NCBI RefSeq assembly: GCF_000230835.1
Contig: NZ_CM001240.1
Coordinates: 5,970,279 to 6,034,278 of the forward strand
Direction: 5' to 3'
DNA length: 64,000 nt
DNA from: Clostridium sp. DL-VIII
GTDB lineage: Bacteria > Bacillota > Clostridia > Clostridiales > Clostridiaceae
Shown here: piece by piece, positions 15,012 through 59,290 of the stretch
Layout: each line of letters begins with the position of its first letter
How positions within the stretch are numbered: position 1 is the first letter of the stretch
Translations under genes and position numbers: made by a program
Notes under the pieces: model-generated
The model's database searches: none
Seen by the model: the letters and a program-made list of their open reading frames with translations, nothing else
What the model was told of the DNA's origin: nothing

Positions 15012-16076
15012 ATGAAAGTACTAACTGTTATAGGCGCTAGACCACAATTTATAAAAGCTGCAACAGTATCAAATAAAATTAGAAGAAATGGAAATAGTGA
15101 AATATTAGTACACACTGGGCAACATTATGATAATAACATGTCTGATATATTTTTTGAGGAGCTTGGAATCCCAAAGCCTAATTATAACTTAAGTATTGGT
15201 TCATCAAATCATGGTCATCAAACTGGCAGTATGTTAATAGCTCTTGAAGAAATATACTTAAAAGAAAAGCCTGATATGGTTTTAGTTTATGGAGATACAA
15301 ATTCAACTCTTGCTGGAAGCCTTTGTGCCAGCAAACTATTAATACCAGTGGCTCATGTAGAGGCTGGACTTAGAAGCTTTAATAAAGTCATGCCAGAAGA
15401 ACAAAATAGAATCTTAACCGATCATATATCTGACTTACTTTTCACACCAACCTTAACAGCCGTAAATAATTTAAAAAATGAAAATATTACAAAGGGTGTT
15501 CATAATGTTGGTGATGTAATGTATGATGCTGTAAATCTTTTTAAAGAAAGAGCTAAAGAAGTATCTACTATACTCGAAAAATTAGACTTGGCTCCTGAAA
15601 GCTACATACTATCTACAATACATCGTGCAGAAAATACAAACAGCATAGAAAGATTAACTTCAATAATTAATGCTTTAAGCAATTCTGGAAAGAGAATAAT
15701 ACTTCCTCTCCATCCAAGAACAAAAAAATTCATTGAAGAATATAATCTTCATATTGGAGATAATATTAGAATCATAGAACCTGTCGGATACTTAGATATG
15801 CTTTCCTTACAAGGAAATTCTCAAAAAATAGTTACAGATAGCGGCGGAGTTCAAAAAGAAGCTTATTTCTTAAAGAAGCCATGCATAACTATGAGAGACG
15901 AAACTGAATGGGTAGAAACGGTAGATAATGGCTGGAACGTCATAGTTGGTAGTGATTCTAATAAAATCATGGATGCATTAGAATCGTTTAATCCAACTGG
16001 TACTCCTGCTTCTGTCTTTGGAAATGGAGATACATCTTCAGTGATCACCCAAATCATCGAAGGTTATTTAAAATAG
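15012..16076 (+). CDS. wecB: UDP-N-acetylglucosamine 2-epimerase (non-hydrolysing)
   Basis: Interconverts UDP-GlcNAc and UDP-ManNAc, supplying ManNAc for surface polymers. 354 residues, GT-B-like fold. The start MKVLTVIGARPQFIKAA is the family signature; HTGQHYDNNMSD, VYGDTNSTLAG, HVEAGLRSF, MPEEQNR and TDSGGVQKEA carry the conserved catalytic and UDP-binding residues. ATG follows AAGGAGGAATAGTAC. It is one of few plus-strand genes, divergent from the GT4 operon and ended by its own terminator, so it is a single transcription unit within the polysaccharide region. Confidence 0.95.
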   Translation: MKVLTVIGARPQFIKAATVSNKIRRNGNSEILVHTGQHYDNNMSDIFFEELGIPKPNYNLSIGSSNHGHQTGSMLIALEEIYLKEKPDMVLVYGDTNSTLAGSLCASKLLIPVAHVEAGLRSFNKVMPEEQNRILTDHISDLLFTPTLTAVNNLKNENITKGVHNVGDVMYDAVNLFKERAKEVSTILEKLDLAPESYILSTIHRAENTNSIERLTSIINALSNSGKRIILPLHPRTKKFIEEYNLHIGDNIRIIEPVGYLDMLSLQGNSQKIVTDSGGVQKEAYFLKKPCITMRDETEWVETVDNGWNVIVGSDSNKIMDALESFNPTGTPASVFGNGDTSSVITQIIEGYLK

Positions 16077-16094
16077 TACAAGAAAATAATTTCT

Positions 16095-16139
16095 AAAAAA
16101 ACGAATTATGTAACTAACTATTACTTAATTCGTTTTTTT
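16095..16139 (+). terminator. Terminator of wecB
   Basis: AAAAAAACGAATTA / TAATTCGTTTTTTT, 14-bp perfect arms with a 17-nt loop and built-in T-run, 18 nt past the stop. Confidence 0.85.
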
Positions 16140-16214
16140 ATTATAAGATTTCAAAGTCACTTATATTTTAGTAATTATATATTTTTTTATTTTATTAATG
16201 CGATGAAAAATTAC

Positions 16215-16242
16215 TTGTATATTATGTAATATATGTTATAAT
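16215..16242 (+). promoter_or_regulatory. Candidate promoter upstream of amylase
   Basis: TTGTAT, 16-nt spacer, TATAAT. It lies 29 nt before an operator-like palindrome, a position suited to repression. Confidence 0.5.
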
Positions 16243-16270
16243 ATGTAGGAAATGATATTTTGCTAATTCA

Positions 16271-16284
16271 TGCAAACGAATGCA
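16271..16284. promoter_or_regulatory. LacI/CcpA-type operator candidate 1
   Basis: TGCAAACGAATGCA: TGCA ends with central ACG, close to cre and MalR-type sites, placed just downstream of the candidate promoter. Confidence 0.45.
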
Positions 16285-16701
16285 GAAATACTTTCCATTA
16301 TATTCTATTTTTTCATTAAATAGATTATTGGATATTAATTGTTTAGCTCTGTAATTAATACTAATAATTTTAGTAAAATACGTTTAATTAAATCACTTCT
16401 TATTCAAACTATTCCTCAAACTATAATCATAGTAGTAAAGCTAAAAAAACTTTAATGTACTGCTAGTTATATTCTTAAATAATTACCTAAAATTTAAAAT
16501 TTCAGCAATTTGTATGAGCATATCTTAAGCTACTTATTAACATAGGTTACAACTATGTCTTTCTAAAGCCTTAAGATTCCTCAATAAATTAAATATAAAA
16601 ATTCAACTAAAGGAGGCTGATATTGGCACAAAAACATTCACATTAAGGAGAAGTTTATTTAACAGTATACACACAAGATAAAGTATAATATTTTTATATT
16701 A

Positions 16702-16715
16702 TGCAAACGTTTGAA
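16702..16715. promoter_or_regulatory. LacI/CcpA-type operator candidate 2
   Basis: TGCAAACGTTTGAA contains the perfect palindrome CAAACGTTTG, 39 nt before the amylase start; the central CG fits the LacI family including CcpA. Confidence 0.5.
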
Positions 16716-16753
16716 TAAGAATTTCAATAATGTTATAAGGAGTGTGTAAGTAA

Positions 16754-18763
16754 ATGAAAAAAAAATTAATATTGAGTCTAACCGCTATCGGATTATTTTT
16801 AAGCTTAGCAATCCCCCCTAGCAACAGCATGAATCAGGTTACAGGTAGTTTTTCAACAGTAGCATATGCTGCCGGTAACTCTTTACCAGCCAACACCAAA
16901 GATGGAACTATTCTTCATGCCTTTGACTGGTCTTTTAATACAATAAAGAATGAATTACCAAATATTGCAGCAGCAGGCTTCAAATCAGTTCAAGTTTCTC
17001 CTGTACAAGGAACTAAAAGCTCATCTACTGATGCAAGTAATTGGTGGTTATTATATCAACCAACCAATCAGTCTATTGGTAATGCTCAACTTGGAACTGA
17101 GGCTCAATTCAAGGAACTTTGTACTGAAGCCGCAAAATATAATATTTCAATTATTGTAGATGTAGTAATGAATCATATGGCTAATAATGGGAATGCAGAC
17201 CAATTAGATTCCTCAGTAGATTCTAGTTTTCAAAATACTAATTATTATCATAACTTAGGACAATGTGCTAATTGGAGTGATAGGTATTCTATTACACAAG
17301 AAGGAATTGGTATGCCGGACTTAAATACCCAAAATTCTGAAGTCCAAAGTAAAGCAATTACTTTTTTAAATCAATGTGCATCAGATGGGGCTGATGGCTT
17401 CCGCTTTGATGCAGCTAAGCATATTGAAACTAATATAGGCTTAGATGCTGGTAAGTCCTGGGCAGGAAATTACTGGACTAACGTTTTAGGAAATCTCACA
17501 AATGAATCAAATTTATTCATATATGGTGAAATATTGCAAGATGGAACAGTAGATAATATTTCCTCCTACGAAACATTTATGAATGTTTCCGCAAGCAATT
17601 TAGGATATGGTATTAGAAGCGCAATCACTTCTAATAATTTAAGTTCTATTGGCACTACCTTTTATGGAATCGATTCCAATAAAGCTGTAGATTTTGTTGA
17701 AACTCATGATAACTATGAAGATGGTACAAGTAAAAGCTTAACAGATACTCAAAGGAAAATGGGCTGGGCAATTGCTGCTGGTCGTGCAAATGCAACTCCT
17801 TTATTTTTTGACAGGCCTACCAGTTCAATTGGGAGTGAAGGAGATTCCTTATGGAAAGACCCTGATATAATTGCAATTAATAATTTCCATAATGCAATGA
17901 TAAGTCAAAATGAATATTTAAGATGGACAAACAATAATCAAACTATGTTAATAGATCGTGGCGCTATTGGTACCTTAATTGTTAACGATGGTTCAAATAC
18001 ATCTATTAATTGCTCGACTAACTTGGCAAATGGAACTTACACTAACCACGGTAGTTCAAGCTGCACATTAACTGTTTCAAACGGAACAATTTCTGGAACT
18101 ATTCCAGTAAATTCAGTCATAGTACTTTATAATGTCAGTTCAAATACAAGTGGAAATAGTGGTGGTTCAACTACAACTTATTCACCAACTTCAGGCTATA
18201 AGGTAGATTATGATAGCAGCACTCTTACTCAAGGTAATAGTTTTACAATATACTATAATGGTTCTCTAGCTAGTTCAAGCAGCGTTTCTCTTCATTTGGG
18301 ATATAACAGCTGGACAAATCCAAGCGATGTTGCCATGACAAAAGATTCAACAAGTGGTTTTTGGAAGGGAAATATAAATATTCCTACTTCAGTTACAAAA
18401 TTGGATTTTGATTTTACTAACGGAAGCAGTTGGGATAATAATAGCAGTCAAAATTGGCATTTACCTGTATATTCAAGCTCTGTTCCAGTACAAGTAACTC
18501 CAGCTCCAACTGCTGGAAAAAGCATTACAGTTTATTATAATGGAAGTTTAGCTTCTAGCGCTTCTTCTATGACATTACACTGGGGATATAATAATTGGGC
18601 AAGCACAAATGATGTCACAATGATTAAGCACTCTGATGGGAAGTGGTCTGCTACAATTACAGTACCATCTGGTAGTTATATGCTTAATATGTGTTTTAAA
18701 AATAATTCAGATACTTGGGATAGTAACAGCTCTAGTAACTACAATTATTCCGTTGCAGAATAA
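16754..18763 (+). CDS. Secreted alpha-amylase with two starch-binding modules
   Basis: Endo-acting starch hydrolase, exported. 669 residues. The signal peptide covers about residues 1-40 (MKKKLILSLTAIGLFLSLAI, AYAA end). The GH13 barrel follows: DVVMNHM at about 136-142, GFRFDAAKH with nucleophile Asp219, YGEIL with acid/base Glu259, and THDN with Asp319. After the C-terminal beta domain and a Ser/Thr/Gly linker come two similar modules (about 500-580 and 590-669, each with YYNGSLAS and a conserved Trp pattern) of the CBM25/26 type that binds starch granules. ATG follows AAGGAG. It lies alone inside the polysaccharide region, so its placement gives no functional hint. Operator-like palindromes suggest carbon-source control. 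Confidence 0.95.
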   Translation: MKKKLILSLTAIGLFLSLAIPPSNSMNQVTGSFSTVAYAAGNSLPANTKDGTILHAFDWSFNTIKNELPNIAAAGFKSVQVSPVQGTKSSSTDASNWWLLYQPTNQSIGNAQLGTEAQFKELCTEAAKYNISIIVDVVMNHMANNGNADQLDSSVDSSFQNTNYYHNLGQCANWSDRYSITQEGIGMPDLNTQNSEVQSKAITFLNQCASDGADGFRFDAAKHIETNIGLDAGKSWAGNYWTNVLGNLTNESNLFIYGEILQDGTVDNISSYETFMNVSASNLGYGIRSAITSNNLSSIGTTFYGIDSNKAVDFVETHDNYEDGTSKSLTDTQRKMGWAIAAGRANATPLFFDRPTSSIGSEGDSLWKDPDIIAINNFHNAMISQNEYLRWTNNNQTMLIDRGAIGTLIVNDGSNTSINCSTNLANGTYTNHGSSSCTLTVSNGTISGTIPVNSVIVLYNVSSNTSGNSGGSTTTYSPTSGYKVDYDSSTLTQGNSFTIYYNGSLASSSSVSLHLGYNSWTNPSDVAMTKDSTSGFWKGNINIPTSVTKLDFDFTNGSSWDNNSSQNWHLPVYSSSVPVQVTPAPTAGKSITVYYNGSLASSASSMTLHWGYNNWASTNDVTMIKHSDGKWSATITVPSGSYMLNMCFKNNSDTWDSNSSSNYNYSVAE

Positions 18764-45280: not shown

Positions 45281-45547
45281 TCAATCTTTAATGTATTTAT
45301 TAATTGTAGCTGCCCCATCCTCATTTGCATGATAGTACACTCTTAAGTTACCTGTTTGATCCATTTCAAATCTTGTTTCTTCAAGAAGACCATTAGCCTC
45401 AGCTGTCATCAAAGCCGAAATCACAGAGTTTCTATTAAGCGCCTTAAACTTACCATATTCACCTTTTAAAGCTTTAATAACATCTTCTGCACAAGCTTCT
45501 TCAACTTTTGTGAAGTATTTTAAAATAGCATAATTAAGTGGTTTCAT
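45281..45547 (-). CDS. Small winged-helix-like protein, partner of the permease gene
   Basis: 88 residues: MKPLNYAILKYFTKVEEACA, then KALNRNSVISALMTAEANGL (helix-turn-helix-like) and RVYYHANEDGAATINKYI. No family is recognised with certainty; the helix pattern and beta end suggest a small winged-helix fold. It starts 1 nt after the permease stop, with AAGGAGGAAAA inside the permease gene's end, so translation is coupled. It may regulate or assist the permease. The terminator follows. Confidence 0.75.
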   Translation of the reverse strand: MKPLNYAILKYFTKVEEACAEDVIKALKGEYGKFKALNRNSVISALMTAEANGLLEETRFEMDQTGNLRVYYHANEDGAATINKYIKD

Positions 45548-45548
45548 A

Positions 45549-46634
45549 CTATTTTTCCTCCTTTTTTCTGAATAAATCCAACGGATTCATCGAAATTACT
45601 AATATACCAATTATCATTAGTATAGCAGCCCCCCAAGCTATTGGAGGCAATGACCAGCCTTCTATACCATAGAACACACCAAGTATTATCCAGCAGCAAA
45701 ATGGTCCCCAGAATGAATATGTACCATTACAAGCCATACCAAGGGCTGCTCCACACATACTGTTTCCTTTATACCAAGTCATATATGAAATAAAGGCACA
45801 AAGACCGCTTATAGCAAGCCAAATCATAGCTGGCCCGCTTGTAAATGCTTGAATTGTAAGCTCTGTTGAAAGGCTAACGCTGCCAGCCATCATACCTAAA
45901 ATAGGAATTAAAATAATTAAATTTGAAAGACCTGATGTTGCCTGACGAATGGTGATACCTATCTCTGAATCAATCATAGCTGTGCCGTAACCAGCTACGC
46001 AACCTTCAAATCCCCATCCAAGTGCAGCAATGAATGCAATACCAAGACCTAATAGCATATTTTCCGGTGCATCTCCAGTAATACTTGTGCTGCCGATCAT
46101 GAAACTTGCACAAACGCAAATGACAATCCCAAGCATCATGCGCTTATTTAATTCCTGCTTAAATAAAATTCTACCTAAAATAGCGCCAATAGCTGGACAA
46201 AGAGCAGTAATAGGAATAACTATTGAGCCTGCCATTTGAAGTCCAACAACATAGGCTGTACTCGAAACAGGTCCTCCTATAAGTGCTGCTAAAATCATAA
46301 CACGACCTGGAGTAGTATTTATACATCTTAAAAAATCGCCAAACTTACCTTTAACACCTGCATAAAGCATTGCCCAAACAGCACTGCAGGTATCATTTAC
46401 TGCACTTCCAAGTGCAGCTAATAAATATGTAATAGCAAATGCTGATAATCCAATTGAATTACTTCCATACCAGTCACTCCAAACGCCTTTTGTCATACCC
46501 AAAGTCAAAAATGCTGAATAAAATCCATACATGAGACCTGAAAATAACGCAATTGTAATACCTTTTTTAAAAAATTGTGAAGATAGCTTCTTCTTTGCAG
46601 CAATTGCCGACGCATTAATTATATTATTTTCCAT
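45549..46634 (-). CDS. DMT/EamA-family permease (possibly LicB-like choline/amine uptake)
   Basis: 361 residues, about ten membrane helices in two EamA halves. KKGITIALFSGLMYGFYSAF, MILAALIGGPVSSTAYVVGL and IAFIAALGWGFEGCVAGYG recall the order and wording of LicB-type choline permeases as I remember them, but the protein is longer by a loop near residues 40-90. That similarity is from memory and needs alignment. ATG follows AGGGGGATTT. Its promoter carries the GTTC-N7-GAAC palindrome also found at the LicA-like gene, which supports a link to amine or choline use. A sugar or other metabolite exporter is the alternative. Confidence 0.75.
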   Translation of the reverse strand: MENNIINASAIAAKKKLSSQFFKKGITIALFSGLMYGFYSAFLTLGMTKGVWSDWYGSNSIGLSAFAITYLLAALGSAVNDTCSAVWAMLYAGVKGKFGDFLRCINTTPGRVMILAALIGGPVSSTAYVVGLQMAGSIVIPITALCPAIGAILGRILFKQELNKRMMLGIVICVCASFMIGSTSITGDAPENMLLGLGIAFIAALGWGFEGCVAGYGTAMIDSEIGITIRQATSGLSNLIILIPILGMMAGSVSLSTELTIQAFTSGPAMIWLAISGLCAFISYMTWYKGNSMCGAALGMACNGTYSFWGPFCCWIILGVFYGIEGWSLPPIAWGAAILMIIGILVISMNPLDLFRKKEEK

Positions 46635-46795: not shown

Positions 46796-46810
46796 GTTCA
46801 TTTTGTGAAC
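46796..46810. promoter_or_regulatory. Operator GTTC-N7-GAAC of the permease gene
   Basis: GTTCATTTTGTGAAC, 3 nt downstream of the minus-strand TATAAT. Same half-sites and spacing as 51446-51460. Confidence 0.6.
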
Positions 46811-46986
46811 ATTATTATATTACCATCGTTCAATGTTCATAGCAATATGTTCAAAAAATTTTTTTCAAATATATTTAAATAAATCGCTATAATTTTTATT
46901 CTTCTAACATTCCTCTATAAAAAGACATATTTATTGCCTTTAACTATTATCTATCTTCTATAAAATTATTACTAACGTAAAAAAAT

Positions 46987-47036
46987 AAAAAGGGGTAAAT
47001 TATTAAAAACATTTTTTTAATAACTTACCCCTTTTT
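46987..47036 (-). terminator. Terminator of the flippase gene
   Basis: AAAAAGGGGTAA / TTACCCCTTTTT, 12-bp perfect outer arms, followed on the minus strand by TTTTATTTTTTTACG; 23 nt past the flippase stop. Confidence 0.8.
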
Positions 47037-47058
47037 AATATTCTTAAACAGATGAGAC

Positions 47059-48519
47059 TTATCTTTTAATTTTTAACTTCATAAAAATTTTATCTGCTAA
47101 TTCCAAAAATACTTGGTCTTTAACAATAACTAATATTCCTACATAAACTAAAGCACATACTGCCCCTTCTAATACACATGCAATTAATATATTATGTACA
47201 GCAAATTTTATTCCAAAAGTTATTGGAATAAATATAAGCGAATAAAAGAAGTACTTTATATTTTCATAAGCAAATAAGTGTATATCTAATTTAATAACTT
47301 TCTTTACTAACCAATATTCAAGACATATTACAATTAAGTTTGCAATAAGAGTAGTTATTATAGCACTTACCATATTGAAAGCTCCTGCAAAAATTAATGC
47401 AAATTTAAGCAGCAAGTTTAATACACCTCCAGCCAGCACCAGCATTGCATCTTCTCTTTCTTTTCCGTGAAGGTATATCATTTGATTCGCAATTACACCT
47501 TCCACTCCAATACTTAGCATATATACTGCAAATACTACCATTACCGGAACCGCTCCTAAGAAATCTGCTCCTCCAAAAATATATATAGCCTCCTTAGAAA
47601 GACATAACAATCCTATCGATGCTGGGAACAGAATCAAGAAGTAAATTTTAATTACTCTTTTTAATAATACCAGATATTCACCCTTAGATTCATTTCCCAG
47701 GTAATTAGACAATCTCGGCATAGTAACCTGAATCACTGTAAGAAGTAATGTATTTATTATCAGCATTATTCTCTGGGCCATATAATAATATCCGACAGCA
47801 GTAGTTCCTCCAATACTATCTTTTAACATAATTTTATCAAGCTGAGTATATAAAACTCCTGTATTAGAAAGAATTACGACATAAAGCATAGGTTTTACGT
47901 GTCTAAAGAATTCCAAATTAGAAAAATCAAAACGTACCTTTCTTTTCACGTAGACAAAACTAATTATATTATTTATAAAATTAAATCCTATAACTAAATA
48001 TAGATAAAATAAATAATCTCCCTGACCCCTTACAAATAATAAAATTAACGCAGAATATATAATTCTAACTACCATTGTTTTAATAGCTATGAAATCATAA
48101 TTTTCTAAAGCTTCATTAACCCATTCCACATAGAAAAGATTAAATACTAAATTAAACCCCATAACTATACAAGTATAAAAATATGGTTCATTCTTATAAT
48201 AAATTCCGACAAATATCATATATGCTGCCGAAGCCACAATATTTGTAACAGTTGTAAACAAAAATAGATTAGTAAACGTTTGTCTAAGTTTTACTTTATC
48301 GTCACGAACTTTACTTATTTCTCTTAATCCATATTGATATATACCAAAGCTTGCAAATATCAAGAAATACGCAGTTAGCGAATCCCCATATCCCATATAA
48401 CCATATAATTCTTTTCCAACAGATCTAGTTACTAGTGGAATTACTAGTATTGGCAGAATTATATTGAATAAATTAAGCATTGCCTTAAAAATTGCATTCT
48501 TTGAAATTGATTTAGCCAT
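47059..48519 (-). CDS. Wzx-type polysaccharide flippase
   Basis: Moves lipid-linked oligosaccharide across the membrane for assembly by the polymerase. 486 residues, about 14 helices in the MATE-like/PST fold (MAKSISKNAIFKAMLNLFNI start, PLVTRSVGKELYGYMGYGDS, FASFGIYQYGLREISKVRDD). Start chosen at MAKSISK because GGAGG lies 9 nt upstream. It is followed by its own terminator and preceded by LicC, suggesting its glycan is the one that receives the choline-type decoration. Located 26 kb from the Wzy-like gene. Confidence 0.9.
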   Translation of the reverse strand: MAKSISKNAIFKAMLNLFNIILPILVIPLVTRSVGKELYGYMGYGDSLTAYFLIFASFGIYQYGLREISKVRDDKVKLRQTFTNLFLFTTVTNIVASAAYMIFVGIYYKNEPYFYTCIVMGFNLVFNLFYVEWVNEALENYDFIAIKTMVVRIIYSALILLFVRGQGDYLFYLYLVIGFNFINNIISFVYVKRKVRFDFSNLEFFRHVKPMLYVVILSNTGVLYTQLDKIMLKDSIGGTTAVGYYYMAQRIMLIINTLLLTVIQVTMPRLSNYLGNESKGEYLVLLKRVIKIYFLILFPASIGLLCLSKEAIYIFGGADFLGAVPVMVVFAVYMLSIGVEGVIANQMIYLHGKEREDAMLVLAGGVLNLLLKFALIFAGAFNMVSAIITTLIANLIVICLEYWLVKKVIKLDIHLFAYENIKYFFYSLIFIPITFGIKFAVHNILIACVLEGAVCALVYVGILVIVKDQVFLELADKIFMKLKIKR

Positions 48520-48662
48520 ATTTTTAGCCTCCATAAATATGAGGATTTCTCATATTAAATTATACGTCCTATTACATTTTTCACTTTTTAAATTGTACAT
48601 TCTACTTAATTTATTGTCAATTCATATTCCAATTTAATGCAAAATATATATTTATACAAAAA

Positions 48663-48776
48663 AAATTAGATACATGTTATAGATAAACAACTTTAAATTC
48701 AGATTTATGCAGTGATTAACCGAAATCACACGAGCTTAAATTTAAGGTTGTATATCTATAAAATTGTATCTAATTT
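48663..48776 (-). terminator. Long terminator hairpin of the licA/licC operon
   Basis: Outer perfect arms AAATTAGATACA / TGTATCTAATTT, then an inner imperfect stem, followed on the minus strand by eight T residues. The loop contains a family F repeat (48681-48760). Confidence 0.7.
48681..48760. repeat. Family F repeat inside a terminator
   Basis: TATAGATAAACAACTTTAAA, ATTTATGCAGTGATTAACCG and AAATCACACGAG follow the same order as the right-hand end of the 6257-6515 element. Confidence 0.5.
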
Positions 48777-48784
48777 CTTTATAT

Positions 48785-49480
48785 TTATAATTTAAGTGTT
48801 CGTTTTAAATATTCTAAATCTTCCAGAGAATCTATCTCAAAGATATCATTTGACTGTATTTTTTCAATATATACATCCATATCCTTGAGGTTATCTACAG
48901 CAATACTATCCCAATATAAATCTCTAAAGTCACCTTTATTTATAGTTTCTTCTACCTTTTCTGAAATAAGCATCCCGTCTTTTGCTGTCCAAAATGATGC
49001 TCCTGACATTATAAAATCAGGCTTATCTCCTTCTTTTCCAATTTCAACATTATGTATTCTATTATTCTCATCATATTTTAATATCCACTCACCTGTTATA
49101 TTTTCCTTGCAGGCTGAATAATATATTGATGTACTTGGCTTAGTCTTTGGTAGAAAATTTCTAGTAATATAATTATCTGCATCAATAACAAATGCATCTT
49201 TTAAATATTGTCTAACTAAATACATAGTATAGATGTTATTATAAACATCATACTTATCATTAATAACTTTAATTAAATTATATTTTTTAACTATAGGATC
49301 AAATTTTTCATGCAAGTAACCTGTTAATACTATAATTTCATCAATTCCAATTTCCCTTAAATTTATTATCTGTCTTTCCAGTAAAGACATTCCATTAACT
49401 TCAATTAAAGACTTTGGAGTATTTTCAGTTAATGGTCTTAATCTAGTTCCCATACCTGCTGCCATTAAAATTGCTCTCAT
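48785..49480 (-). CDS. licC: CTP:phosphocholine cytidylyltransferase, LicC type
   Basis: Makes CDP-choline from CTP and phosphocholine. 231 residues. Signature AAGMGTRLRPLTENTPKSLI at the start, FVIDADNYI (metal Asp), GEWILKYD, and MSGASFWTAKDG, GDFRDLYWDSIAVDNLKDMD and NDIFEIDSLEDLEY, which are the segments I associate with pneumococcal LicC. Starts 1 nt after the stop of the LicA-like fusion gene, with the ribosome site in that gene's end. CDP-choline would feed LicD. Confidence 0.88.
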   Translation of the reverse strand: MRAILMAAGMGTRLRPLTENTPKSLIEVNGMSLLERQIINLREIGIDEIIVLTGYLHEKFDPIVKKYNLIKVINDKYDVYNNIYTMYLVRQYLKDAFVIDADNYITRNFLPKTKPSTSIYYSACKENITGEWILKYDENNRIHNVEIGKEGDKPDFIMSGASFWTAKDGMLISEKVEETINKGDFRDLYWDSIAVDNLKDMDVYIEKIQSNDIFEIDSLEDLEYLKRTLKL

Positions 49481-49481
49481 A

Positions 49482-51347
49482 TCACACCTCGAGTTCAGCT
49501 AACTGTTTTAAGTATTCTTTTGCTCTATTATATCTATCTATTCCATAAGTACCAAAATCATCGCCTTCAGCTTCTTTTACCAAGGTCCATACTGCCCACA
49601 ATGTATCTTGGCATATTTGATGGATTAATAATCTTCTTCTTGAATTCTTATCTGCTTCTTTTCCATTAAAATATAATCTAAACATTAATTCAATATCATC
49701 TTCTGAGAATTCATTTTCTAAGGATAAAGCAGCTAAATCCCACATATCATCATTAATTCCGCTATATTCCCAGTCTATTAAATAAATTCTTCCTTGTGTA
49801 TCTTTAACAAAGTTTTCTGAAACTAAATCATTATGAGATGGTACAAATACTCTATCACATTTCTTTAATTCTTCTTCAAGAGCCATTACTTCTGATCTTA
49901 CTTCATCATAATCTTCAAAGAAACTTCCATTATCACTTTTTAAGATATTTTCATATTTTTCAAGTTCTCTGAATACATTAAATTCATTATCCATATGAAA
50001 ATCATCACATTCATGTAAATTTCTTAAGATTGTTGTAACTTGTTTTAAATTTTCTTCTTTTTTAATACTTCTATGAGTCAAAGTTTCCGCATTTTCTATA
50101 AACTTTGATATTTTAACTCCAGTTTCAAGATTAAAGTAAGGCACTTCAACATTATATCCTTTTTCAGAAGCAATTGCAGAGTTAAACATTTCTGTACTTC
50201 TATTTATCATCTGCTCTGTTCCCGCACCTGCAACTCTTAGAATAAATCTTTCACCTTTAACACAGATTCTATAGTTTTTATTAGTCATACCACCAGCTGG
50301 TACAACTTCTGTAATATCTTCATCATTAACCTTTAGTGATTCACGAACAATAGCCTTTATGCTGTTCATTTCATAACTAAGTTCTCTTCTTCTTATGGTT
50401 GGATATAAATAATTTTTAATTTTTTCATACTCCTTTGCAGTATCTGCATCTCCCCAGGCAAGATCATCTATTTTAACAAATCCTATATTATAATTTCTAG
50501 CTACATCTAATAATACATATTCATAGTTTAAATACGGATTAACATTTCCTTTAAATTCTTCAAGCATCATTGTATATAATTTATAAGAAATCTTAGTAAG
50601 CCCTATCATTTCTCCATCAATTCTATTAAATTGATGAATATCTTTTGACATTTTAAATAAATGATTATCCCTTATTTCAACAAAGGCTTCATCTCCAGAA
50701 CCACTTTCATTAGTAAAAAGTATACAGTCGTGATTAGAGCTTTCTGCTAATTCCTTAATCGCTCTCTTTTCAAAGATTAAATCATTTTCTATAAGTAAAA
50801 AGTCATCATCAATATAATCTTTTGCTAAAGATAATGAATGCATAGTACCTGTCCATTTGTATGTATCGCTCTTAACTAAAGCAATGTTTTTACTATTTTT
50901 AAAATATTCCTCATAACGTTGACTTTCATAACCTGTTACTATAACAATTTTAGTTATCCCATTTTCCTTTAAAATATTTAAGGTTCTGTCTATTAACTTA
51001 AAGTCTTCAATTTCAAGCATTCCTACAGGCTTTCCAAACTCTTCTGCTTTACCTGCAGCAAGTATTACAGCCTGCTTTACAATCTTTCTTTCTGCTTCAT
51101 GAAGCTTTAATCTTGTATTCTTTGCAGATGCAATATTCTCTTCTAAAAACTTCATTCCTTTTTCAGTAACTTTATATAAAGTTCCTCTGTTATTTGTTAT
51201 TCTATCTATAAATCCGTCTATTGTAAATTCTTTTAAAACCGCGTTAACCTTACCTAGAGATATATTAGTTCTTTTCGCTAACTCTCTTTGATTAATATTA
51301 AAGTTATCATTTAACGTCTTTAAAATCTCTATTCTATCCTCTAACAT
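49482..51347 (-). CDS. HTH-nucleotidyltransferase-choline kinase fusion (LicA-like)
   Basis: 621 residues, three parts. N-terminal winged helix (about 1-80, NFNINQRELAKRTNISLGKV, DRITNNRGTLYKVTEKG). Then a nucleotidyltransferase-like domain (about 90-310, KQAVILAAGKAEEFGKPVGM, LLIENDLIF): the glycine loop lacks the usual GTR pattern, so activity or substrate may differ. Then a LicA/APH-type kinase (about 330-620, AGGMTNKNYRICVKGERFIL, catalytic SHNDLVSENFV and IYLIDWEYSGIN metal site) phosphorylating choline or a similar amine. Downstream licC is translationally close. The HTH with an operator just downstream of its own promoter suggests autoregulation. Aminoethylphosphonate use is the alternative. 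Confidence 0.88.
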   Translation of the reverse strand: MLEDRIEILKTLNDNFNINQRELAKRTNISLGKVNAVLKEFTIDGFIDRITNNRGTLYKVTEKGMKFLEENIASAKNTRLKLHEAERKIVKQAVILAAGKAEEFGKPVGMLEIEDFKLIDRTLNILKENGITKIVIVTGYESQRYEEYFKNSKNIALVKSDTYKWTGTMHSLSLAKDYIDDDFLLIENDLIFEKRAIKELAESSNHDCILFTNESGSGDEAFVEIRDNHLFKMSKDIHQFNRIDGEMIGLTKISYKLYTMMLEEFKGNVNPYLNYEYVLLDVARNYNIGFVKIDDLAWGDADTAKEYEKIKNYLYPTIRRRELSYEMNSIKAIVRESLKVNDEDITEVVPAGGMTNKNYRICVKGERFILRVAGAGTEQMINRSTEMFNSAIASEKGYNVEVPYFNLETGVKISKFIENAETLTHRSIKKEENLKQVTTILRNLHECDDFHMDNEFNVFRELEKYENILKSDNGSFFEDYDEVRSEVMALEEELKKCDRVFVPSHNDLVSENFVKDTQGRIYLIDWEYSGINDDMWDLAALSLENEFSEDDIELMFRLYFNGKEADKNSRRRLLIHQICQDTLWAVWTLVKEAEGDDFGTYGIDRYNRAKEYLKQLAELEV

Positions 51348-51445
51348 ATTTTAACTCCCCCTTTTGTTTGGCATACCAAAAAAATAATGCATCGCATCAT
51401 CAGATGCTTGTTATTTTGATTTATATGCCTGCTATATACTCTAAT

Positions 51446-51460
51446 GTTCGAATTTTGAAC
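51446..51460. promoter_or_regulatory. Operator GTTC-N7-GAAC of the LicA-like operon
   Basis: GTTCGAATTTTGAAC, 7 nt downstream of the -10 of the promoter at 51468-51496, so it covers the transcription start. Shares half-sites and spacing with 46796-46810. Confidence 0.65.
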
Positions 51461-51467
51461 TATAACT

Positions 51468-51496
51468 ATTATATTCCTTGAAATTATGGATGTCAA
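51468..51496 (-). promoter_or_regulatory. Consensus sigma-A promoter of the LicA-like operon
   Basis: Minus strand TTGACA, exact 17-nt spacer, TATAAT. About 120 nt upstream of the start codon. Confidence 0.85.
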
Positions 51497-51653: not shown

Positions 51654-54600
51654 TTAAGCTATAACAGTACCATCTTGTCCAAAAGTATAATTTTTATCAT
51701 CCACAAACATAGTCTGATTTACTACCATTTGACCATTTGGAGTAAAGTAATACCACTTTCCATTTAAATATAACCAGCCTTTATGCATTACACCATTTAA
51801 TTCCAAGTAATACCAGCTGTTATTTAAATTTATCCATCCTGTTCTCATTTCTCCAGTTGATGAATCTAAATAATATGTCTTTCCATCAGCTTCATCAACT
51901 TTCCAGCCTGAAGCTCTATATCCTACATTATTTAAATAATAAAGTTTTCCCCCAGTTTTTATCCAAGCATTCTTAACTTGTCTGTGGTTCTTATCAAAAT
52001 AAGTTGGCTTTCCATTTACAGTTCCCCATTCATCATATTTTCTTGTATCTACCCAACAGTCGTTATAATCATCATAATATTGATCGTCATCGTATTGACT
52101 ACCATCTCCAGAACCGCCATTCCAGTCAGATACATCAACTCTATAAACTTTTAGCGTATAAGTTTTACTCTCTGATCCATCTTCTGATTCAACAACAATT
52201 TCAATTTCTGTCTTTTGAGATCCTCTAAGACTTACACTTATGGCACTATCAGAATAATCTTCTCCATTAACAGTAACTTTCGACTTAGAATCCTCTGGAA
52301 TTGGAGTTACTTGAACACTTGCTACATTTTGGTCTACTCGAACCTCAGTTGGATCTTTCTTTGGATTAAAATCATAGTCACCTGTGTTTAAGATTACATT
52401 CTTCAAACCAGCATTACTGCTTTTTTGATTATTTTTTATTACAACACTATATGTTTCAGTAGTAATTCCATCTTGTGCAGTAACTAGTATTTTTACAGTA
52501 GTAGTTCCATTTGAATTTAGAGGTAATTCAGTTTCTTCTCCTGAAACTAAATCATAGCTATCATTACTTCCATTTATAGTTGCTACAATTGAGCTTACAT
52601 TTTCATTTGTAGGTTTTACAGTTATCTTCTCACTTGTATCACTTTTTGAAACAGTAGTAGTATAGGATAACTTATCGCTTGAAAAACCTTCACTTCCATC
52701 AGCATCTTTCAATGTATATCCCTTAACACTTAAAGAACTTAAAGAAGCATCATTAGAATTTTGTTCTGGTGGAGTACCATCAGAAGGCTTATAATTTTGC
52801 GGTAAATAGAATACATACTTATCTCCAGCTGGATAACTTCCAACTAACACCTTTTGGGTTGTTTTGTTACCACTTGAATCTGTAACTTCCTTATCATCAA
52901 ATTTATCATAATACGTTTGAATATATATTTTTTCATAATTTTTCAAATTGATGGTAATGCTTGGATTTCTTTTTAAAAATGTACTTGAGTCTTCATCTGA
53001 ATCATAATTATTATTTTTAGATTCATCGAACTCTGTATAACTATTGCTATCCTTATTAGTTGCATAGAAGACTCTTATATACTCATTTCTATCACTTTGC
53101 TCTCCTGTATATTTTATTGTTACTGGATCTGCAACCTTATCTAAATTTACATTTCCAAAACATAAATCATAAGTGACTCTTGATGGATTAAATGTTAAAA
53201 CACTATCGCTTACACCTGGTTGCCTTAAATAAGGCTCTGGCGATCCAGCGAATTGTAAATTCATAGTAGAGTGACTTCCTGTCTCAATAATAACATCTAA
53301 TGAATATCTAGCTAATATTGTTGACGAATCTGTTATATTTCCATCGCTTCCTTTATATACGTCTAACTGTATCTTATTGCTATAAGCGCCTTTTTGAAAA
53401 TCAACATAGTTCTTTCCGTCTCCTCCACTGAGAGAAGCCTTTATTTCCTTAGTCGTCCCATCTGCAGTCTCTTTATAATTATTCTGCACACTATATCCCA
53501 AGCCGGACTTCGGCACTATGAGCGTAGGATCTAAACTTATTTGTTTAGCTCTTGAATCTATAGTAATGGTTCCATTATAAATTGGAAATCCAGAGTTTGG
53601 ATCTCTTGTAACTGAAAATGTTTTGCCTATATATGCATCAACATCACTATCATCATTCATATATTGTTTAGTTATACCTGCATCTTTCAAACTATAATCC
53701 TTAGAAGCATCTAATGCACTATATTTTATCTGTAAAGCATAAGACCTTGTTATCGGTGTACTATCACCCGACTCAGTTGATTTTATTCTTATTACTATTG
53801 AGGAAGATCCTAAGTTAGATAATGATCCTTGTAATGATTCATCTCCAAACTCGATAGATTTATCTTCCTGTCCATTTAAAAACACAATAGCATCTTCTAA
53901 ACTTATATTAAAATTCATAACATACTTTAGCATATAAGTTGAATCAGGTACATTAAAATTATATCTAAGTGGTATATTGGGATCTGCTTCTGCTATTTGT
54001 GTATATAAAAATGGTTTTTGATTATTTTTAGGAACTAAAACTGTATCACCATCAAAATCGCTTTTACCACCTACATATGACTTAAATATTAAGCTTTGTA
54101 TTTTTTGTATAGCAAATGAAGTTCCATACTCTATTGTTATTGTTTTATCACTAATATTAGTGGAATCTTTAGTATCTCCCCATGTTATTGTCCCATTACC
54201 AGTTGGAGTTCCATCTGCATTTAGTTCTGGAGTATAAGTAACAGTTTGAGTTGTTTGTATTATTTCATATGAAACAGTGTTAACACCATATGGTAATCCA
54301 ACTAACCTCTTTCCGACTACATCTTCACCATTTGTATCATCAGTACCATCTATTCTAGTAACATCTATCCCCATATTGGTTGATATTTTAGTAGGCGAGC
54401 CGCTATCTATTGTGTCTGTTATGCTTTGAGCATCAATTGCTTTAATTACAACTCTCTGACCTACTATAAAAGTAGCATTAGTTGGTTTAGTAGTTGCAGC
54501 ATTTTTCACCTCATTCTCCATCTGAGTAGTATCAGTCCTATAAACCTTCGGAACTGTTAAATCGAACCCTGTTGTTCCACTTTGATCCTCACTTATTACG

Positions 54601-54791
54601 CTAGGATGCGAATAAATCACATCAGTTCCAGATGTTGTTGGTTGAATATATTTTTCATTTGTAACATTTACTCTGATACCTGATGTAGTAGCTGCCTCTG
54701 CTACCTGTCCACCAAATTGCACTGGCAAAAATGATACTATACTTGTAAACACCATAAGCAGCGCTATAAACTTACTTTTGACTTTTCTCAT
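51654..54791 (-). CDS. Large secreted surface protein: cadherin-like domains and wall-binding repeats
   Basis: 1045 residues. Signal peptide (1-35, KSKFIALLMVFTSIVSFLPV, end VAEAA). About 35-680 is a beta-rich, Thr/Asp/Ser-rich region with no recognised domain name. About 685-880 holds two cadherin-like beta-sandwich units (ASLSSLSVKGYTLKDADG, NAGLKNVILNTGDYDFNP; each ends in YSVVI or YTLKVY). The C-terminal ~110 residues form about five choline-binding-type repeats (KLYYLNNVGYRASGW, SWYYLELNGVMHKGW, KWYYFTPNGQMV). Likely wall-attached and possibly adhesive. Start follows GGAGGGCGAC. Divergent in content from all other genes here; its tail shares the repeat class with three neighbours. Confidence 0.87.
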   Translation of the reverse strand: MRKVKSKFIALLMVFTSIVSFLPVQFGGQVAEAATTSGIRVNVTNEKYIQPTTSGTDVIYSHPSVISEDQSGTTGFDLTVPKVYRTDTTQMENEVKNAATTKPTNATFIVGQRVVIKAIDAQSITDTIDSGSPTKISTNMGIDVTRIDGTDDTNGEDVVGKRLVGLPYGVNTVSYEIIQTTQTVTYTPELNADGTPTGNGTITWGDTKDSTNISDKTITIEYGTSFAIQKIQSLIFKSYVGGKSDFDGDTVLVPKNNQKPFLYTQIAEADPNIPLRYNFNVPDSTYMLKYVMNFNISLEDAIVFLNGQEDKSIEFGDESLQGSLSNLGSSSIVIRIKSTESGDSTPITRSYALQIKYSALDASKDYSLKDAGITKQYMNDDSDVDAYIGKTFSVTRDPNSGFPIYNGTITIDSRAKQISLDPTLIVPKSGLGYSVQNNYKETADGTTKEIKASLSGGDGKNYVDFQKGAYSNKIQLDVYKGSDGNITDSSTILARYSLDVIIETGSHSTMNLQFAGSPEPYLRQPGVSDSVLTFNPSRVTYDLCFGNVNLDKVADPVTIKYTGEQSDRNEYIRVFYATNKDSNSYTEFDESKNNNYDSDEDSSTFLKRNPSITINLKNYEKIYIQTYYDKFDDKEVTDSSGNKTTQKVLVGSYPAGDKYVFYLPQNYKPSDGTPPEQNSNDASLSSLSVKGYTLKDADGSEGFSSDKLSYTTTVSKSDTSEKITVKPTNENVSSIVATINGSNDSYDLVSGEETELPLNSNGTTTVKILVTAQDGITTETYSVVIKNNQKSSNAGLKNVILNTGDYDFNPKKDPTEVRVDQNVASVQVTPIPEDSKSKVTVNGEDYSDSAISVSLRGSQKTEIEIVVESEDGSESKTYTLKVYRVDVSDWNGGSGDGSQYDDDQYYDDYNDCWVDTRKYDEWGTVNGKPTYFDKNHRQVKNAWIKTGGKLYYLNNVGYRASGWKVDEADGKTYYLDSSTGEMRTGWINLNNSWYYLELNGVMHKGWLYLNGKWYYFTPNGQMVVNQTMFVDDKNYTFGQDGTVIA

Positions 54792-56735: not shown

Positions 56736-58973
56736 TTAAATATTAGCCGCAATAACTTCAGCTATTGCTTCAGCCACCTTTTGCTGATTAGATGCATCTG
56801 CACATCTTATTGCTTCTTCCTTATTAGTTATGAATCCCACTTCGACTAATACTGCCGGCATATTAGCATTTCTGCATACAAATAAGTTTTGCTCTTGACC
56901 GCCTCTATTATTCAAATTAAGTTTATTTGCAATGTTGTCATTTATAAGAGCTGCCATCTGCTTACTTCTCTCTATTCTAGCATTATCCAATTTACCACCA
57001 AAATTAGCATCTTGCGTCTCTGAGCTATAAAGAGATAATACCCCTTTAGCAGTTTCTCCTGCTGAGTTATGATGTATGCTTATAAAGAAGTCTGCCTTTG
57101 AGTTGTTGGCTATGTTAACTCTATGAGTAAGACTATCAGTTAACGTACCATAAGAAGGTTTTTCTCCTAAATTTCTTGTCATTATTACATTATATCCTCT
57201 ATCTTGAAGCTCTGTTTTTAATTTATCTGCAACCTGCATATTTAAAACCGTTTCACTATAGGTTACTCCATCAATAGTGCTTTCAGCTCCATAATCATTA
57301 CCATAATCATGACCTGGATCTATTACTATAGTCTTACCTTTTGATGAATTATTATTTCCTGGTGTTGAACCTGGCTTAGAATTATCTTCATCAGTTTGAC
57401 TTGATGAATTCTTTCTCTTACCATCAGCGCCAATTTTATAGCCATCAATTGTAGTATTAGTAACTAACTTTCCTGATGATTTATCTAAATAGTATGAATC
57501 TCCATTAGATGCAACCCAGCCTGTTACCATTGCTCCACTATTATTTAGATAATACCAAGTTCCGTTAATATTGATCCAGCCCTTTGCCATCGCTCCATTA
57601 TCATATAAATAATAATAGTTTTCACCATCTGCAATCCAATCTGTTGCCATGCTTCCATCACTATTAAAGTAATACCAGTAATTATTGATTTGTTTCCAGC
57701 CAGTTATCATTGAACCACTGTCATTAAACATATGACTTTTATTGTCTATTTTCTTCAGACCAGTTACCATGCTTCCATCTCCTTGAAGGAAATACCAAAC
57801 ATTATTTTCTTTAAACCAACCAGTCTTTATTTTCCCACCATTTTCAAAATAATACCACTTATCATCCAATTTAGTCCATCCAGTATTAGTTGTCATAACT
57901 CCTGAGCTTTTTAAATAATAAAGGCCTGAACCATCATATTGAATTCCAGTGCCCATAGCACCTGTACTAGTTAAAAAGTACCAATCATTATCTAGTTGTT
58001 TCCACCCTTTTACCATAGCACCTGACTTATCTAGGTAATACCAGCTATTATTATCGTAAACCCATCCTGTTGTCATTTTCCCATCATCTTTTAAGTAGTA
58101 CCAATTGCCATCTGGATTAATCCATCCGATTGCCTTGGTATTATCTGATTTATAATAATACCAAGCTCCATTTTCATTCTTCCAGCCAATAGCTGATGTT
58201 ATGTTAGTTTTGTCCACATTAGTTGTATTTCCACTCTGGGGTTTATTTTCTTCAATAACATCCGATGCATTTAATCCACTCGGTTTACTTTCAATCTTCC
58301 CAGGATTTGGAGCCGAATTTGATGAATTATTTCCACTATTATTACTATTAGAACTATTATCATCCTTTTGATAATCTATTCCCGCGTAGTCTAATAAGTC
58401 TTCATACAATTTCCTAACTTCTTCACCATATGTAGCACTTGGAGCCCATTTACCACCCAGTGAATTTACTGTAGGTGAATTCCCCTTAATTGTTACAAAA
58501 TGCCTAGGATCATAAGTGTCGTCTCTTGGATATCCCTTAGCCCCTGCATATAGGGCTAAATGATCCAAATGTGCTTGTACGCCTTCATCCCAGCTGTCAA
58601 ATTTTTGGTGTGCATTAGGATCAGTGTCTCCGCCACCTGAAGCTTTTTTTAATCCACATGGATTATGATAACTTTCATCTAAAACTCCGCCAAATTTTCC
58701 AAACCCAGTTTCCTTTGCAGCTTGGACATATGCAATTGCCGGATTAACTTTTCCATGATCTTTAGAATATTCAAAGTATAAATCTGCCAAACCTACAAAC
58801 GTTTCCGTCGCACCTTTAGATTTAGCCCATTTCTCAGCTTGCTTTACAGTGACTTCAGTATCTGAAATTATTTTGAAATCAGTAGTTGCTGCTTGTACAC
58901 CTAATGTCGGAATAAAACTTAATACCATTGCAAAGGCTAAAACAAAGGTAGTAAATTTATTTTTAATATTCAA
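56736..58973 (-). CDS. Bifunctional cell-wall hydrolase: glucosaminidase, wall repeats, amidase
   Basis: 745 residues. Signal peptide (about 1-30, NKFTTFVLAFAMVLSFIPTL, GVQAA). Glucosaminidase domain (about 35-200; YVQAAKETGFGKFGG with the catalytic Glu, HNPCGLKK). Then a Ser/Asn linker and 12 choline-binding-type repeats (about 265-525, WYYLDKSGAMVKGW class). A linker leads to the Amidase_3 domain (about 550-745) with zinc ligands in VIDPGHDYGND, YSETVLNM, FFISIHHNS and catalytic Glu in VLVEVGFITN. Start is TTG at 58973 (GGAGG 12 nt upstream); a longer ATG frame 26 codons earlier hides the signal peptide. It would cut glycan strands and stem peptides of the wall, anchored by the repeats. Confidence 0.92.
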   Translation of the reverse strand: MNIKNKFTTFVLAFAMVLSFIPTLGVQAATTDFKIISDTEVTVKQAEKWAKSKGATETFVGLADLYFEYSKDHGKVNPAIAYVQAAKETGFGKFGGVLDESYHNPCGLKKASGGGDTDPNAHQKFDSWDEGVQAHLDHLALYAGAKGYPRDDTYDPRHFVTIKGNSPTVNSLGGKWAPSATYGEEVRKLYEDLLDYAGIDYQKDDNSSNSNNSGNNSSNSAPNPGKIESKPSGLNASDVIEENKPQSGNTTNVDKTNITSAIGWKNENGAWYYYKSDNTKAIGWINPDGNWYYLKDDGKMTTGWVYDNNSWYYLDKSGAMVKGWKQLDNDWYFLTSTGAMGTGIQYDGSGLYYLKSSGVMTTNTGWTKLDDKWYYFENGGKIKTGWFKENNVWYFLQGDGSMVTGLKKIDNKSHMFNDSGSMITGWKQINNYWYYFNSDGSMATDWIADGENYYYLYDNGAMAKGWININGTWYYLNNSGAMVTGWVASNGDSYYLDKSSGKLVTNTTIDGYKIGADGKRKNSSSQTDEDNSKPGSTPGNNNSSKGKTIVIDPGHDYGNDYGAESTIDGVTYSETVLNMQVADKLKTELQDRGYNVIMTRNLGEKPSYGTLTDSLTHRVNIANNSKADFFISIHHNSAGETAKGVLSLYSSETQDANFGGKLDNARIERSKQMAALINDNIANKLNLNNRGGQEQNLFVCRNANMPAVLVEVGFITNKEEAIRCADASNQQKVAEAIAEVIAANI

Positions 58974-59290
58974 AATAGTCTGCCACCTCCTTATATTAGA
59001 TTTTAGCAAAAAACGCCATGGCATAAAAGCTAATTTTTCTAAAATATGCACTTTATTTATAATAATTTTACATTAACTTTACTTTTGGAACATATTCTTC
59101 AAAAATCGAATTTTTATCCTAAGACATTAATTATCCATTATTCACTATAACTTTAATTTTTCTCTGAATATATATGTTAAAATTATCAATTAAAACCTTT
59201 CTAATTTCTTATTTCATAAGATTTCTCGGCTTAAAAAATTCTATGCTTTCCTATACAAAAATAAAAAGAGAGCCTGTTTCATGCTCTCTT
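58974..59290. other. 317-nt spacer
   Basis: AT-rich apart from the terminator at 59264-59292 that ends the Cys-rich protein gene. No further feature is recognised. Confidence 0.5.

Follow-up and report, generated by a model that had tools for sequence, protein, structure and literature searches.

Candidate autoregulation of a LicA-like choline kinase fusion and a shared headgroup-supply operator in Clostridium sp. DL-VIII

The lic operon of Clostridium sp. DL-VIII begins with a gene for a LicA-like protein, and a 15-bp palindrome with GTTC and GAAC half-sites lies just past the −10 element of this gene and again just past that of a permease gene. Both genes are found in a 64,000-nucleotide stretch of contig NZ_CM001240.1 (positions 5,970,279 to 6,034,278; here the window, whose own coordinates are used below). 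The locus raises the question of whether one regulator controls both genes and whether this regulator is the LicA-like protein, a fusion of a winged helix, a degenerate cytidylyltransferase-like domain and a choline kinase domain. To our knowledge, it is poorly understood how bacteria with choline on their teichoic acids adjust its uptake, activation and export to the supply. Genome comparison indicated that the fusion is likely to be an autoregulated repressor-kinase that controls headgroup supply for teichoic acid decoration. This reading draws on the conservation of the palindrome upstream of fusion genes, on a set of composite promoters with the same palindrome and on the domains of the fusion.

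Operators at the lic and permease promoters

The palindromes reported by the first-pass annotation were recovered at 46796-46810 (GTTCATTTTGTGAAC) and 51446-51460 (GTTCGAATTTTGAAC), within the following elements.

51491..51496, minus strand: lic −35, TTGACA, 17-bp spacer
51468..51473, minus strand: lic −10, TATAAT, 7 nt before the palindrome
51446..51460, minus strand: lic operator, forward GTTCGAATTTTGAAC, gene strand GTTCAAAATTCGAAC, covering about +1 to +15
46796..46853, minus strand: composite promoter-operator of the permease (58 bp), with three TGAAC half-sites, −35, extended −10 and palindrome
46849..46853, minus strand: TGAAC half-site 1
46840..46845, minus strand: permease −35, TTGCTA, 17-bp spacer
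46835..46839, minus strand: TGAAC half-site 2, 14 bp from half-site 1
46828..46832, minus strand: TGAAC half-site 3, 7 bp from half-site 2
46817..46822, minus strand: permease −10, TAATAT, extended (preceded by TGn), 6 nt before the palindrome
46796..46810, minus strand: palindrome within the composite, forward GTTCATTTTGTGAAC, gene strand GTTCACAAAATGAAC

The consensus promoter of the LicA-like gene, with the palindrome 7 nt past its −10, was as first described. At the permease gene the palindrome does follow the −10 closely, but the TATAAT proposed there, 3 nt away, gave way to TGnTAATAT, which is conserved in relatives and ends 6 nt away. The additional GTTCA/TGAAC half-sites around the permease copy are real, and three of them form a conserved array. 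The palindrome GTTCACAAAATGAAC was unchanged, with TGAAC half-sites at fixed spacing upstream, in all six genomes (source included) that have a window-type permease in the lic locus.

Counts of the 8-base motif did not bear out its proposed role as a regulatory signal, which is supported by position and conservation. GTTC-N7-GAAC occurred at 33 sites in the source genome (6.48 Mb, one contig), fewer than the 71 of the reversed control, as would be expected if the shared motif reflected the background of an AT-rich genome. The window contained two matches against 0.31 expected, a number reached by three of 100 shuffles. Seven of the 33 sites had the longer form GTTCA-N5-TGAAC, and four of these seven were inside composite promoters. 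A pattern that also admits the lic site, GTTCAHWWWWYGAAC, was found at six distinct places in the genome (control, 4), five of them being the lic and composite operators. The genus and family searches gave 42 fusion genes, and in 35 cases the 350 nt preceding the gene contained an exact GTTC-N7-GAAC, against about 0.002 sites per 350 nt predicted from the genome count.

When GTTCA-N5-TGAAC was sought over the same distance with at most one mismatch, a site was present upstream of 51 of 57 fusions with a helix-turn-helix (HTH) domain, many of them from close species, non-identical but not independent, and upstream of none of the four HTH-less fusions (best, three mismatches). The HTH-bearing fusions span Romboutsia, Peptostreptococcus, Streptococcus anginosus, Abiotrophia, Bacillus and Cytobacillus, besides Clostridium. 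These 61 fusions were obtained from 85 by removing identical copies, with named genomes added; kinase-only or split matches (L021, L025, L029 and L161-L167; L and G numbers are our handles for loci and genomes), weak fragments (L168 and L169) and five paralogues with HTH and nucleotidyltransferase domains only were left out, and L018 was scored as HTH-bearing from the alignment. A phylum-wide search of 398 genomes for more HTH-less fusions returned, besides G000, one kinase-only match and no others. Two fusion genes were present per genome in C. cadaveris, in tandem (L142), and in G142, apart.

Forty-nine genes had a usable site, and in 41 of these the operator was preceded, at a distance of 4-12 nt (mode 7-8 nt), by a hexamer matching TATAAT in at least five of six positions; this position just after the −10 was kept despite widely varying leader lengths and flanks. 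The site persists upstream of both genes where the surrounding DNA has diverged, which argues against a chance origin; chance was rejected on the 35 of 42 fusion genes with an exact site and on the fixed palindrome spacing in 82 of 84 composite promoters, and is left with next to no probability. Both palindromes are genuine, and they appear to be functional.

Composite promoters and their target genes

The search pattern for composite promoters consisted of the half-site array, with the palindrome left out. The array was found in 22 of 206 family genomes (control, 0). When one mismatch was allowed, the 67 genus genomes again yielded 22 (control, 0), with 84 distinct places and 2-5 per genome. 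The same 22 genomes hold a fusion at least 72 % identical to that of the window. An exact palindrome was present in 82 of the 84 composites, at offset 43 (79) or 44 (3). The two composites without a palindrome at the usual offset were in L186 (G137) and L244 (G127); one lies before a methyltransferase gene, and for the other no downstream gene was called.

For 82 of the 84 composites the next gene encodes a transport protein, a nucleotidyltransferase or a methyltransferase. The first genes comprised 21 DMT permeases (six window-type and 15 LicB-type), 21 methyltransferases of 186 amino acids, 19 PntC-like proteins, 11 UgpB-like binding proteins, six taurine-type ABC permeases and two UgpA-like proteins, with single instances of a PhnD-like protein (PF12974), an ABC ATPase and a PHP-like protein, and one site at which no gene was called; the UgpA-like, ABC ATPase and PHP-like labels were given by eye, and the UgpB- and Tau-type matches were under the NCBIfam cut-offs. 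The PHP-like gene, in L183 (G122), encodes a 472-amino-acid protein that appears by eye to be a PHP-type phosphoesterase and is the sole such target. In L127 a Cache-HAMP-PAS-GGDEF protein (16000-18009) is encoded between a LicB-type permease gene and a UgpB-type gene, each with its own composite. A search at 1e-30 placed the methyltransferase in 20 of the 206 family genomes, every one of them a composite-bearing genome, and its 21 full-length copies were the 21 behind composites. A partial second copy, with two internal stops, was present in L305 (G079).

Four unrelated loci carry the composite in the source genome. The targets are the window permease; an operon of PntC (6pd1, 2.1e-53, motif intact), phosphoenolpyruvate (PEP) mutase (TIGR02320) and phosphonopyruvate decarboxylase (TIGR03297); the methyltransferase; and a taurine-type ABC importer followed by a type I phosphodiesterase. 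The scope first proposed, amine uptake and activation, is included in this set and is too narrow for it, as 2-aminoethylphosphonate synthesis, the methyltransferase and ABC importers are also covered. The gene content suggests that the theme of the regulon is the supply of phosphocholine-like and aminoethylphosphonate headgroups.

A scan for the palindrome in 19 distant genomes gave a match in 15, with off-lic sites examined for C. cadaveris alone. The composite was not detected in that species; simple palindromes lie there before a set of aminotransferase, thiamine pyrophosphate-dependent decarboxylase and PEP mutase genes and, at a second off-lic site, before a LicC/PntC-like gene with a binding protein gene.

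These distributions bear on whether a different regulator, belonging to this species group, binds the composites and perhaps the lic operator, with the HTH of the fusion binding only its own promoter or nothing. The composite array is confined to 22 of 206 family genomes and the simple lic palindrome is far wider, and in-line half-site arrays are unlike a single MarR-type site. Against this, the same 10-base palindrome occupies nearly the same place relative to the −10 at lic and composite promoters, and C. cadaveris has the simple palindrome alone before other targets. No other regulator gene recurred beside the sites in the gene lists inspected, and no systematic search for one was made. A separate regulator was considered unlikely.

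Activation was thought somewhat less probable still. The half-sites immediately before the −35 and between the −35 and −10 might recruit or reshape polymerase at promoters whose −35 is weak (TTGnnn); the palindrome, however, overlaps the likely start at both promoter types, and the composite combines a spacer of normal length (17 bp) with an extended −10. Repression by the fusion remains the favoured reading. The lic operator had one weakened half (CGAAC) in 17 of the 22 composite-bearing genomes (counted by eye), whereas the palindrome was perfect in 82 of 84 composites, which suggests that self-repression is weaker than repression of the targets. Two exact operators were found 88 bp apart in L134 (8805 and 8893) and 99 bp apart in L141 (8802 and 8901), upstream of fusion genes, and perhaps reflect two promoters or looping.

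The fusion protein and its proposed mode of control

The fusion consists of the following parts.

49482..51347, minus strand: 621-amino-acid fusion of a winged helix, a degenerate PntC/LicC-like domain and a LicA choline kinase
51132..51347, minus strand: winged-helix domain, residues 1-72, the putative DNA-binding part (Pfam HTH_24, 4.2e-8)
50382..51080, minus strand: pseudo-cytidylyltransferase domain, residues 90-322, with GXG(T/S)RX4-8PK lost (6pd1, 8.4e-28)
49512..50342, minus strand: choline kinase domain, residues 336-612 (LicA 4r77, 1e-60)

An AlphaFold2 model built from 23 sequences (mean predicted local distance difference test score 88.3) comprised a winged helix, a nucleotidyltransferase fold and a kinase. 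The winged helix was formed by helices 2-14, 20-27 and 31-44 and strands 47-52 and 55-60, and the region of its recognition helix, around S-L-G-K-V-N, was common to aligned fusions. In Pfam searches HTH_24 passed its cut-off (33.1 against 21.9) and MarR failed (22.5 bits against 24.6). Foldseek matched the model to LicA (9.7e-25) and to PntC (6pd1_B, 9.4e-19, 2.1 Å). The kinase domain (PF01633, 1.7e-23) had residues H505, D507, N512 and D525 of its HxD...N and D motifs invariant in 23 of 23 sequences.

PntC was the best nucleotidyltransferase match of the middle domain, from which the catalytic motif was absent in all 61 homologues. The motif is kept in the separate LicC and in the 274-amino-acid PntC; in L024, PA stands in place of PK. 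Alanine mutants of PntC at the motif Arg or Lys (Arg15 and Lys25) retain less than 10 % activity, according to excerpts of PMC6697681. With the motif lost throughout, the middle domain is therefore probably no cytidylyltransferase, and it may well be a ligand sensor from which catalysis has been lost.

The proposed sequence of events is that a winged-helix dimer would bind GTTCA-N5-TGAAC at the transcription start and block the lic operon (fusion, LicC and TacF) together with, in near relatives, 2-5 other promoters per genome, four of them in the source genome. Autorepression is suggested by the fact that the fusion gene encodes an HTH protein and that its consensus promoter bears the operator at the likely transcription start. 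At composites, three in-line half-sites, set on both sides of the −35 and taking up the spacer, would join the palindrome and probably make repression tighter and cooperative. The kinase domain would make phosphocholine, and the middle domain would probably bind phosphocholine, CDP-choline or an aminoethylphosphonate product and signal headgroup plenty to the HTH, such that supply genes are off when product is abundant and on when it is scarce. A corepressor, with genes off at abundant product, seems about twice as likely as an inducer because the targets are supply genes. The fuller proposal is more tentative, and may well fail in some part: that the kinase gauges the supply of headgroups by means of an inactive cytidylyltransferase domain, that its own winged helix governs a single regulon for phosphocholine and 2-aminoethylphosphonate, and that the methyltransferase may convert one headgroup type towards the other.

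Several observations weigh against repression by the fusion. The HTH part had no match among the best 50 in Foldseek. The overlap of composites and closest fusions in the same 22 genomes could come from descent alone, and the lic operator differs from the five-half-site array, at which a second protein may act. Six HTH-bearing fusions were without a site of at most one mismatch: L016 has a 16-bp variant, L080, L144 and L151 have two mismatches, L158 has three, and L026 sits behind another gene with no visible promoter of its own. The HTH-less sample is of four genes only, and these four keep the degenerate middle domain, which is therefore not a partner of the HTH alone and might adjust the kinase as well. 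Of five relatives that combine HTH and nucleotidyltransferase domains but lack the kinase, one had an exact site, one a site with one mismatch and one a site with two, and two had none within two mismatches. Counts of the palindrome alone were near control in most of eight genomes compared. Among control open reading frames in named loci, 14 of 426 had a site of at most one mismatch; by coordinates, eight share the lic or permease-operator intergenic region, two are C. cadaveris targets and four are chance-like. The proposal of the first-pass annotation, one regulator of uptake and activation with the LicA-like fusion as candidate, is still the best reading, given the contrast between HTH-bearing and HTH-less fusions and the permease palindrome shared by all six genomes, and binding by the HTH of the fusion is what we infer.

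Enzyme-repressor fusions and MarR-type choline-responsive repressors are already known as kinds. NadR combines an HTH with nicotinamide mononucleotide adenylyltransferase and ribosylnicotinamide kinase. It resembles the fusion in joining DNA-binding, nucleotidyltransferase-type and kinase domains and in regulating its own pathway, uptake included. The families are unrelated, however: the fusion has a LicA-type kinase and a motif-less PntC-like middle domain and belongs to a choline/aminoethylphosphonate pathway, and neither NadR enzyme was among its Pfam and NCBIfam matches at 0.001. The lic/tac pathway of Streptococcus pneumoniae (LicA, LicB, LicC and TacF) matches the kinase domain, cytidylyltransferase, flippase and, in relatives, LicB, but the LicA described here is fused to an HTH and to a degenerate PntC-like domain, and the locus has its operator in common with aminoethylphosphonate genes. 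TacF is described in excerpts of PMC13385700.

NrtR, described in excerpts of PMC6800001 as a Nudix-related autorepressor of nicotinamide adenine dinucleotide synthesis, is likewise an enzyme-family-related regulator, with its own gene and a biosynthetic pathway as the targets of repression, but has different folds and no attached LicA-type kinase. In Bacillus subtilis, GbsR and OpcR are MarR-type repressors of choline uptake and use, GbsR being induced by choline and acting as a roadblock downstream of the start site (excerpts of PMC7396694); they differ in their osmoprotection role and their targets, and no fused kinase is described there. PntC, the aminoethylphosphonate cytidylyltransferase (6pd1; excerpts of PMC6697681), is both the closest match of the middle domain and, intact, a regulon target, whereas the fused domain lacks the motif Arg and Lys. 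The terms 'helix-turn-helix' and 'regulat' do not occur in the main text of PMC6697681, nor do 'Clostridium' and 'helix-turn-helix' in PMC10434233, and no description of the fusion or regulon was found in the open-licence literature among the matches listed. The locus offers a named candidate sensor, an operator and a target list for the control of choline supply, and places decoration with phosphocholine and with phosphonate under a common control element. It would be a case of an enzyme domain seemingly turned sensor beside an intact kinase; a self-repressing choline kinase, if true, would be a simple way to sense headgroup supply.

Layout of the lic locus and the permease

On the minus strand the fusion gene is followed by genes for LicC, a TacF-type flippase, the permease and an 88-amino-acid PadR-like protein.

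48785..49480, minus strand: LicC, CTP:phosphocholine cytidylyltransferase, motif intact (1jyk, 2e-61)
47059..48534, minus strand: TacF-type teichoic acid flippase (9xzn, 1.7e-62)
45549..46634, minus strand: 361-amino-acid DMT-type permease, distant LicB paralogue (31 % over 234 amino acids to a LicB-type permease)
45281..45547, minus strand: 88-amino-acid PadR-like winged-helix protein, companion of the permease family (22.5 bits, under the Pfam cut-off of 27)

The permease had been called distant from the operon; 424 bp separate the end of the flippase gene from the start of the permease gene, which belongs to the same locus. Choline-binding repeats are present in large proteins at 51654-54791 and 56736-59051, adjoining the lic locus and consistent with a choline-bearing wall, and one of the two also has amidase and glucosaminidase domains. 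The nearest named relatives among the compared genomes were Clostridium species such as C. chromiireducens and C. beijerinckii.

In other species a LicB-type permease (7b0k, 2.7e-41) occupies the same place in the lic locus behind the same promoter. The window permease, at the identity given above, had no PDB match at 0.001 and no Pfam family (EamA included) to place it with LicB. It appears to have taken the place and promoter of LicB in this species group. Among 44 homologues with fetched DNA (one further match had no locus), the operator was present in six, a MerR-like promoter in 23 and both in none. An operator specific to the permease was rejected, as 38 of the 44 lacked it and 23 had the different promoter.

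The 88-amino-acid protein is encoded beside the permease in 27 of the 44 loci, including all six with the operator (by a short sequence motif), and might itself repress the permease site. However, 21 of the loci that encode it have no operator, and 13 of these have the MerR-like promoter instead, on which ground it was rejected as regulator of these sites. Moreover, 15 of the 21 permeases behind composites are LicB-type, with no such small gene after them in the gene lists, and a role for this protein is very improbable.

The 23 homologues with the other promoter (L032-L041, L043-L050, L055 and L089-L092) share the form TTGAC..CC..GG..TATAAT, with an inverted repeat between the −35 and −10, a known arrangement for MerR-type control.

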